From: Paracoccus shanxieyensis
Lineage (GTDB): Bacteria > Pseudomonadota > Alphaproteobacteria > Rhodobacterales > Rhodobacteraceae
DNA: 64,000 nucleotides
Direction: 5' to 3'
Assembly: GCF_009711265.1 (NCBI RefSeq)
Contig: NZ_WMII01000003.1
Location: 62,001 to 126,000 of the forward strand
Shown piece by piece: positions 53,287-58,779 of the stretch; the stretch's first letter is position 1; every line of letters starts with the position of its first letter. The translations under genes were made by a program, and so were the position numbers. The notes beneath the pieces are model-generated. The model was not told the DNA's origin. It was given only the letters and a program-made list of their open reading frames with translations, and did not search any database.

Positions 53287-57926
<4,640 letters not shown>

Positions 57927-57960
57927 CTGCGCCGCTGAGGGTCTGAAGTTTTCCACAGAT

Positions 57961-58007
57961 GTTCTTAAAAAGTTCTTTACTTTGTTCCGCTGCAATGAGA
58001 ACAAAGT
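57961..58007 (+). promoter_or_regulatory. LexA-box cluster upstream of a small membrane peptide
   Basis: GTTC at 57961-57964 and GTTC at 57972-57975 are separated by seven bases (TTAAAAA), the LexA box known from alphaproteobacteria (GTTC-N7-GTTC). A further GTTC follows at 57984-57987, and ACTTTGTTC (57979-57987) is the exact inverse of GAACAAAGT (57999-58007). A TATAAA -10-like box at 58007-58012 overlaps the last element, so a repressor here would block transcription. Only the 35-residue gene at 58033 lies downstream. Confidence 0.7.
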
Positions 58008-58032
58008 ATAAACAAACCGTGGAGAGACTGAT

Positions 58033-58140
58033 ATGACTCGCGAAACTCTGGCCGATCTGGTGGGCGTCGTTGCGATTTCGGTGACGGCCATCATCCTGTT
58101 TTCCATGCCCTCGGTCACGCCGATCCTGACTGCGGCCTGA
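58033..58140 (+). CDS. 35-residue membrane peptide, likely SOS-induced
   Basis: ATG at 58033 opens a 35-residue frame, MTRETLADLVGVVAISVTAI at the start and ILFSMPSVTPILTAA at the end, with one hydrophobic segment of about 20 residues (LVGVVAISVTAIILFSMPSV), so it is a single-pass inner-membrane peptide. A GGAGAG ribosome site lies seven bases before the start, a LexA-box cluster 26-72 bases before it, and an intrinsic terminator 105 bases after its stop. Size and topology resemble Caulobacter SidA, a 29-residue SOS-induced division inhibitor, but no sequence similarity is claimed. A 12-base tandem repeat spans its stop. Confidence 0.6.
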   Translation: MTRETLADLVGVVAISVTAIILFSMPSVTPILTAA

Positions 58141-58154
58141 CCTGCGGCCTGACC
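58131..58154 (+). repeat. Twelve-base tandem repeat across the small gene's stop
   Basis: TGCGGCCTGACC occurs twice in direct succession at 58131-58142 and 58143-58154, followed by TGCG. The first copy includes the TGA stop of the 35-residue gene. It is probably a small local duplication. Confidence 0.7.
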
Positions 58155-58244
58155 TGCGATTTTTTCCTGCCCCGCGCTTTTCGGCTGTCCCGTTGCCTGT
58201 GGACAAGCCGCGACCGTCCCCCGGTCAAGACATGCGCGCACCTG

Positions 58245-58271
58245 CCGGTCCCGTCACGGGGCCGGCTTTTT
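58245..58271 (+). terminator. Intrinsic terminator of the small SOS-type transcript
   Basis: CCGGTCCC (58245-58252) pairs with GGGGCCGG (58258-58265) around a five-base loop, and CTTTTT follows. It ends a unit of about 250 bases that begins at the LexA box. Confidence 0.85.
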
Positions 58272-58347: not shown

Positions 58348-58779
58348 TCAGGACGCGTCGATGGCGGCCAGAGTTGCCTCCCATGCCAGCAGGATCGAGG
58401 CGTGGCGGTTGGGGAATTCGCGCGCGGGCAGCAGGGTTTCCAGCGCGGCAAAGGGGGGCTGCGGGGCCGCGCCGCCGGATTTCAGCATGGCGGTCAGTTC
58501 GTCGCGGGCGGTCAGGATGTCGTCGCGGGTGCGTCCGATGACGGCGCCACCCAGCACGCCCGCCGAGGCCTGGCCCAAGGCGCAGGCGCGCACCTCTTGC
58601 GCGAAATCGGCGATGCGGCCCTGATCCATCCGCACATGCGCCGTGACCGACGAGCCGCATTGCGGCGACCGGCGATGCGCGCTGCCCGTGGCATCGTCCA
58701 GCTTGCCCAGATGCGGGATATCGGTCGCCAGCGCCAGGATCCGGCGGGAATAAAGCTGCATCAGATCGCTGTCGGACAT
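58348..58779 (-). CDS. SufU/NifU-like iron-sulfur scaffold protein
   Basis: A 143-residue protein with SAHRRSPQCGSSVTAHVRMD and AQEVRACALGQASAGVLGGA, which give Cys41 and Cys66 of the IscU/SufU scaffold. The third Cys expected near residue 128 is missing (there is RHASILLAWEA), and the Asp that follows Cys41 is Ser, so cluster assembly would differ from standard SufU. This form is usual in alphaproteobacteria. It may hold or transfer clusters or sulfur. It is divergent from hisI, and sufE is on the other side of recG. Confidence 0.82.
   Translation of the reverse strand: MSDSDLMQLYSRRILALATDIPHLGKLDDATGSAHRRSPQCGSSVTAHVRMDQGRIADFAQEVRACALGQASAGVLGGAVIGRTRDDILTARDELTAMLKSGGAAPQPPFAALETLLPAREFPNRHASILLAWEATLAAIDAS

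Follow-up and report, generated by a model that had tools for sequence, protein, structure and literature searches.

The recG gene in the 64-kb window, the whole stretch of Paracoccus shanxieyensis DNA that was analysed, is directly followed by a tiny, unannotated gene encoding a micropeptide (Table 1). The peptide of this genome is 35 amino acids long, with a charged N-terminus followed by a single hydrophobic helix. Re-reading of the sequence confirmed the LexA box, the GGAGAG site, the 35-residue frame, and the terminator described in the first-pass annotation. A scan of the unit with the sigma-70 consensus found no promoter. The convergent gene beyond the terminator is presumably NifU-like, judging from its sequence resemblance. 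The C-terminus of the P. shanxieyensis peptide is four residues longer than that of the usual 31-residue form of the genus, and a short tandem repeat, GCGGCCTGACCT, extends from the 3' end of the frame into the adjoining downstream sequence (58130-58158). The sequence TTTTCCACA, located just upstream of the LexA box at 57949-57957, fits a DnaA-box consensus and is absent from all the others of the 28 loci of the genus.

Table 1 Features of the locus downstream of recG in the P. shanxieyensis window.
Feature	Position	Strand	Basis
recG, constant upstream neighbour of the micropeptide unit	55821-57926	+	open reading frame
LexA box, direct repeat GTTC-N7-GTTC, GTTCTTAAAAAGTTC	57961-57975	+	read in the sequence; conserved in homologous loci
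TTTAC directly 3' of the LexA box, probable -35 region	57976-57980	+	operator logo
TGAGAACAAA, constant spacing to the box; probably the -10 region, an accessory operator half, or both	57996-58005	+	operator logo
Shine-Dalgarno site GGAGAG	58021-58026	+	read in the sequence; Shine-Dalgarno-like site common in homologues
Micropeptide gene, ATG at 58033 to TGA, 35 amino acids and stop	58033-58140	+	open reading frame, purifying selection, residue conservation
Conserved body of the 3'UTR, with the genus motif CTGCCCCGCG at 58167-58176	58141-58243	+	sequence comparison
Intrinsic terminator, stem 58244-58266 and T run	58244-58271	+	fold; hairpin and T run common in homologues
NifU-like gene, convergent, beyond the terminator	58348-58779		

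The homologues in the genus were identified with the 35-residue peptide as the query, and the loci were then read individually. Besides this genome, 27 of 36 others of the genus carry a homologue behind recG; the remaining nine gave false, weak, or no matches. Most members from the genus have 31 residues and a C-terminal motif resembling VVLWLPAILQA. A profile built from 27 of the 28 genus peptides reached just 65 of 295 genomes of the family (E <= 0.1). The 30 loci read from this search comprise the window itself, two false matches, and 27 loci that were kept, one of them from the same genus. These 27 loci mostly encode 40-residue peptides of the type MLxQIKTALxRSxxTLLQDAxGAAALVVMLVVALHLPGL. 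The recG gene is upstream of the unit in all 28 genus loci and in all 27 further family loci. The first-pass annotation had allowed that the place after recG may be chance; this is incorrect, as the linkage holds across the family.

A wider profile of 34 rows combines the 27 loci from the genus-profile search with seven genus peptides, and these rows match it by construction; loci L029, L030, L054, and L074 have been excluded as false matches. In a sample of 87 genera of the one family, all 196 genomes were matched by the wider profile at E <= 0.05, 194 of them also at E < 0.001, and reading of the loci confirmed the peptide in the remaining two (G391 and G405). In a genus-by-genus sample, 256 of 295 genomes, representing 255 of 294 genera, were matched at E <= 0.001. 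Twenty of the 39 genomes without a match at this threshold were examined, and recG was found in 15. Ten of these 15 recG loci contain a box of the GTTC or GAAC type with N7 spacing and a transmembrane frame just after recG, and five contain neither. The peptide thus drifts beyond the reach of the profile, while the box and the membrane frame persist, which identifies SOS control and the membrane helix as the constant features. The five loci that lack both indicate that the unit is dispensable. A looser form of the operator is present in 177 of the 196 genomes, compared with five matches for the reversed control; the count is per genome, and the match given for at least three of them (G109, G390, and G413) is not at the peptide locus. 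Twenty difficult genomes, 11 of the 19 operator-negative ones and nine others with a weak peptide score or an odd operator, were read individually: all 20 contain the peptide and 18 an intact GTTC-N7-GTTC. The frame and the box are conserved together in other genomes of Paracoccus and Rhodobacteraceae. The refuting case named in the first-pass annotation, in which only one of the two is conserved, was looked for across the family loci and was not found.

A single GTTC-N7-GTTC is expected by chance in a sequence of this length (1.22 expected and one observed in the 64-kb window, the one after recG), and therefore the box alone is no evidence. Genome-wide, the pattern occurs 132 times, compared with 97 for the reversed control. 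What makes the box more than a chance occurrence is its conservation across loci, together with the finding that the operator alone leads back to the same locus. In the genus, 27 of 28 loci have the box, and 26 have it together with GAACA downstream; among the 27 further family loci, both counts are 26. The same class of box, a GTTC-N7-GTTC direct repeat at a putative promoter, occurs at recA and lexA of the same genome and also at an imuA-like gene, the family score of which is below the curated cut-off. A comparison protein at locus L042, taken for SRAP, gave no family match. The operator agrees with the Caulobacter LexA-box consensus in the accessible text of PMC12700426.

The logo of the operator-selected loci reads GTTC-N6-GTTC-N7-GTTCTTTAC-N15-TGAGAACAAA, followed by a conserved CAAC. 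The probable -35 element is the TTTAC adjoining the box; the position of TGAGAACAAA probably corresponds to the -10 region. The -10 element proposed earlier, TATAAA at 58007-58012, is found in only three of 28 genus loci and in none of 27 further family loci, and the inverted repeat CTTTGTTC/GAACAAAG proposed as an operator element is also limited to three of 28 genus loci. Both have been rejected as functional elements; conserved in their place is GTTC-N7-GTTCTTTAC-N15-TGAGAACAAA. LexA control of the micropeptide, in turn, is strongly supported by the co-conservation of box and frame, and this pattern makes SOS control of the gene very likely.

Some operators deviate from the logo. The promoter-proximal GTTC is mutated in L314, L316, and L320, which keep the upstream GTTC elements, and L315 carries three GTTC copies at N6 spacing; L315 and L316 have N6 spacing only. 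Repression may be weakened or shifted at these four loci. A second recurrent operator-like sequence, GTTCRCCTCTTGTTCT followed by GAACA, is located away from the peptide in G109, G412, G413, G423, and G437; it is a possible further SOS promoter conserved in the family. In the P. shanxieyensis genome, two other loci (L039 and L041) have GTTC-N7-GTTC boxes, each followed by CTATATTG(A)GAAC, which forms a palindrome of the GTTCTATATTGAGAAC type ahead of a possible start.

The GTDB genome collection was scanned with the operator GTTCTYAWAAAGTTCTTKAC-N13-18-GAGAACAAA alone, without information about recG or the frame. The scan retrieved at least 118 loci, 80 of which are listed and belong to Ruegeria, Roseovarius, Sulfitobacter, Leisingera, Celeribacter, Rhodovulum, Rhodobacter, Paracoccus, related genera, and metagenome-assembled genomes (MAGs), some of the MAGs being titled only Alphaproteobacteria. 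Among the matches listed, recG is upstream in 117 of 118 loci, at most 545 nt away and mostly about 30 nt, and the peptide is downstream in 116 of 118. The exceptions are a sequence that starts after recG (L183) and two that end before the end of the frame (L190 and L241); the sequence of L180 ends inside the frame. Loci selected by their operator test linkage and not frequency. Of the 118 operator-selected loci among the matches listed, 94 have the NifU-like gene, and the downstream genes are not constant.

Outside the family, the best match of the wider profile in 187 class-level genomes of other families has E = 0.0034. None of the recG loci examined in 23 further families of Alphaproteobacteria, 27 in number, has the unit; in two of these loci (L284 and L297), the sequence beyond recG is limited to about 109 and 264 nt. 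Partial cases are L296, with a box and no frame, and L298, with a hydrophobic frame and no box. A search of plasmids and phages with one 39-residue query gave no match. The unit seems to have arisen within the Rhodobacter/Roseobacter/Paracoccus family.

The 170 complete frames that were compared are 31-50 codons long; 166 start with ATG, and 157 are preceded by a Shine-Dalgarno-like site. The codon-level comparison called for by the first-pass annotation indicates purifying selection, with a median Nei-Gojobori dN/dS of 0.17 over 137 pairs, which are not independent of each other, and values below 1 in 99% of them. One aspartate is invariant (170/170), and a glycine (169/170) and a proline (167/168) are nearly so. 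The C-terminal half is hydrophobic and uncharged: among the 168 members with the D-x-x-G motif, 167 have no charge after the aspartate, and the hydropathy exceeds the transmembrane threshold in all. The N-terminal part contains on average 2.4 lysines or arginines and 2.2 aspartates or glutamates, and it is modestly amphipathic (moment 0.36, compared with 0.25 after shuffling, n = 135). These properties fit a cytoplasmic N-terminus and one membrane helix. Translation into a single-pass membrane peptide, as the earlier reading had it, is strongly supported by co-conservation. As in SidA-type peptides, the 168 members are very small and have one predicted transmembrane helix and almost no soluble domain. 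Conservation on one side of the helix is not significant (P = 0.20, or 0.055 with the aspartate and proline included), and the strongest period of conservation along the predicted helix is not the helical one; a docking face is therefore not established by conservation. Searches of Pfam and NCBIfam, with four members scanned per library, gave sub-threshold matches and none above the curated cut-off, and membership in a known protein family has been rejected on these grounds. The protein-database relatives number 18, of which four carry a name, in each case "hypothetical protein". That the micropeptide gene is real is near certain, and we are highly confident that it encodes a LexA-controlled membrane micropeptide.

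By a folding criterion applied without a control region, 158 of 170 homologues have a hairpin and T run behind the frame. A strict test for terminators with exact stems identified 38 of 170, compared with one of 157 in a control inside recG. The self-contained transcript proposed in the first-pass annotation is strongly supported by co-conservation. The region from the stop codon to the terminator (58141-58243) and the 3'UTRs of the homologues are conserved and rich in CCTG motifs. The identity of the 3'UTR body is 0.69, compared with 0.59 beyond the terminator and 0.52 for shuffled sequences (means of 106 non-genus pairs), and it is higher in 89% of the pairs. The motif CTGCC[TC]GCG occurs in 71 of 158 3'UTRs, compared with 1.0 in shuffles, and CCTG[TC]CCC in 73 of 158, compared with 3.4; the counterpart of these motifs in the genus is CTGCCCCG, present in 25 of 28 loci. 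No conserved fold was found in the 3'UTR apart from the terminator. Rfam gave no match above the cut-off, with one sub-threshold chance match for the segment 57800-58400, and a known RNA family has been rejected for this reason. The conservation of the 3'UTR is new relative to the first-pass reading. It is not accounted for by a role of the peptide only, and it suggests that the transcript may have a second function at the RNA level.

We consider it about an even chance that the LexA-repressed micropeptide works like SidA of Caulobacter and inhibits division by braking septal wall synthesis. In an undamaged cell, LexA would occupy GTTC-N7-GTTC beside the -35 region and block the promoter. Binding of RecA to single-stranded DNA would trigger the self-cleavage of LexA and the synthesis of a short one-gene mRNA, which would be translated from its good Shine-Dalgarno site into a peptide of 35 residues, within the 31-50 seen family-wide. 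The charged N-terminus would be kept in the cytoplasm, and the hydrophobic helix starting at the invariant aspartate would span the inner membrane and dock on the septal wall-synthesis machinery, most likely on FtsW or its partners FtsI and FtsN. Constriction would be delayed until repair is complete, as it is by SidA in Caulobacter. The SOS-type operator, the frame, the selection acting on it, the single syntenic site, and the membrane character are supported by sequence. The joint conservation of the operator, frame, and recG neighbour across the family speaks for the SidA-like role, as do the matching boxes at recA and lexA, the purifying selection, the near-fixed residues and uncharged helix, the persistence of box and membrane frame where the peptide drifts, the plasmid and phage search that gave no match with its one query, and the precedents of SidA and YneA. 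LexA binding and induction, topology, partner, and division block are what we infer. Against this role count the dispensability of the unit, the conserved 3'UTR, and the helix conservation that is not significantly one-sided. A further caution for a peptide consisting of little but a helix is that the transmembrane segment of YneA alone leaves division unblocked, according to the accessible text of PMC13396833.

The micropeptide might instead act on the membrane itself, as an SOS-induced toxin resembling TisB or DinQ that would disturb or depolarise the inner membrane and slow down the cell as a whole; an antisense RNA might serve as its antitoxin. DinQ and TisB of E. coli are LexA-controlled single-helix peptides in the sources available to us, and the size and hydrophobicity of the micropeptide fit such an activity. 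However, the gene occupies one syntenic chromosomal site family-wide under purifying selection, the 5' leader of its transcript is short, no antisense gene came to notice, and its helix is free of charged residues in 167 of 168 members, unlike the helix of TisB, which is charged and amphipathic. We regard a toxin as unlikely; a mobile one has been rejected because of the plasmid and phage search with its single query. Similarly doubtful is the possibility that the transcript is dual-function or mainly a regulatory RNA, in which the 3'UTR would be an SOS-induced small RNA and the peptide its second product. The 3'UTR body, with its enriched motifs, is conserved above the flanking DNA, and a terminator with a U tail ends 158 of 170 transcripts. 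By contrast, the frame is under strong coding selection, the conserved fold is limited to the terminator, Rfam offers no match above its cut-off, and the 3'UTR motifs could serve mRNA stability or processing. A more specific proposal, to which we likewise give a low probability, combines the two products into a family-wide DNA-damage checkpoint: a dual-function SOS transcript, the peptide of which would brake septal wall synthesis, while the 3'UTR, with its CUGCCUGCG and CCUGUCCC motifs and U-tailed terminator, would be a base-pairing or protein-binding RNA. We know of no such dual-function arrangement in any alphaproteobacterium.

It is also conceivable, if rather improbable, that the peptide is a LexA-controlled small subunit or modulator of another inner-membrane protein, such as a respiratory, transport, or protease component, and has no part in division. 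Micropeptides that tune membrane enzymes are common, and the few strongly conserved helix positions imply just that some specific contact matters; however, nothing specific indicates another partner, and the downstream genes vary (NifU-like in 94 of 118 among the matches listed). The most remote of the explanations is a chance box with a spurious frame, or a site for CtrA and not LexA. The box alone is expected more than once per window, and the operator here, TTAA-N7-TTTA, is one base off the full CtrA site, TTAA-N7-TTAA. Against this stands the co-conservation of the unit family-wide, and TTAA-N7-TTAA is found in none of 28 genus loci, two of 27 family loci, and none of 115 named loci, a set selected by its operator with other flanks allowed. 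A chance box has been rejected because of the conservation, and a CtrA site because the motif of the CtrA regulon is nearly absent across the loci.

To our knowledge, each of the well-studied SOS responses has its own, unrelated division brake. Searches of open-access full text found no description of an SOS division brake for the Rhodobacter/Roseobacter/Paracoccus family, in which the micropeptide is a leading candidate for the division brake during DNA damage. The searches of open-access papers, supplements aside, likewise found no account of the micropeptide, which may already have been published elsewhere. An in-silico regulon survey that includes Paracoccus denitrificans and Rhodobacter sphaeroides reports that recG of some alphaproteobacteria appears to be LexA-regulated, and the accessible part of its text does not mention a micropeptide (PMC3323433). 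The main text of a study of LexA and CtrA in Dinoroseobacter, as far as it is accessible, does not name recG (PMC6473078). The candidate and its operator are kept across most of the family, which opens the question of the division brake to a test by a single deletion in a laboratory strain and also suggests that a nearly universal SOS target can escape regulon surveys tied to annotated genes. The drift of the peptide, with the box and helix kept, provides a natural series for locating residues that contact the target.

TisB and DinQ of Escherichia coli are, in the sources available to us, LexA-controlled single-helix membrane peptides, as is predicted for the micropeptide; however, they act on the membrane and are controlled by antisense RNA, whereas the micropeptide gene has a single, vertically inherited locus and a sense 3'UTR that is conserved. 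YneA of Bacillus subtilis, SosA, and ChiZ share with it the character, proposed for the micropeptide, of SOS- or damage-induced small membrane proteins, and they block late division. YneA and ChiZ differ from the micropeptide in carrying a periplasmic LysM domain (PMC13396833, accessible text). In the same text, the transmembrane segment of YneA binds TM7 of FtsW, and AlphaFold 3 models, which are not of high confidence, position SidA, ChiZ, and SosA at FtsW TM7 too (PMC13396833). DidA of Caulobacter crescentus is a damage-induced small transmembrane division inhibitor like the one proposed here, but it has 71 residues, is SOS-independent, and interacts with FtsN, while the switch of the micropeptide would be the LexA box (PMC4211646, in part). 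The likeness to SidA of C. crescentus is one of description; no relative of the micropeptide reached E <= 0.003 when the 187 genomes from other families, perhaps not including Caulobacteraceae, were searched. The target and effect are known for SidA and are inferred for the micropeptide. SidA is a 29-residue inner-membrane protein that interacts with FtsW (PMC4211646), and the filamentous growth of the Caulobacter lexA-null strain is due to sidA (PMC12700426), according to the accessible parts of these papers. As is predicted for the micropeptide, SidA is a tiny, single-pass inner-membrane peptide of an alphaproteobacterium, encoded behind a LexA box of the GTTC-N7-GTTC type (PMC4211646, PMC12700426).
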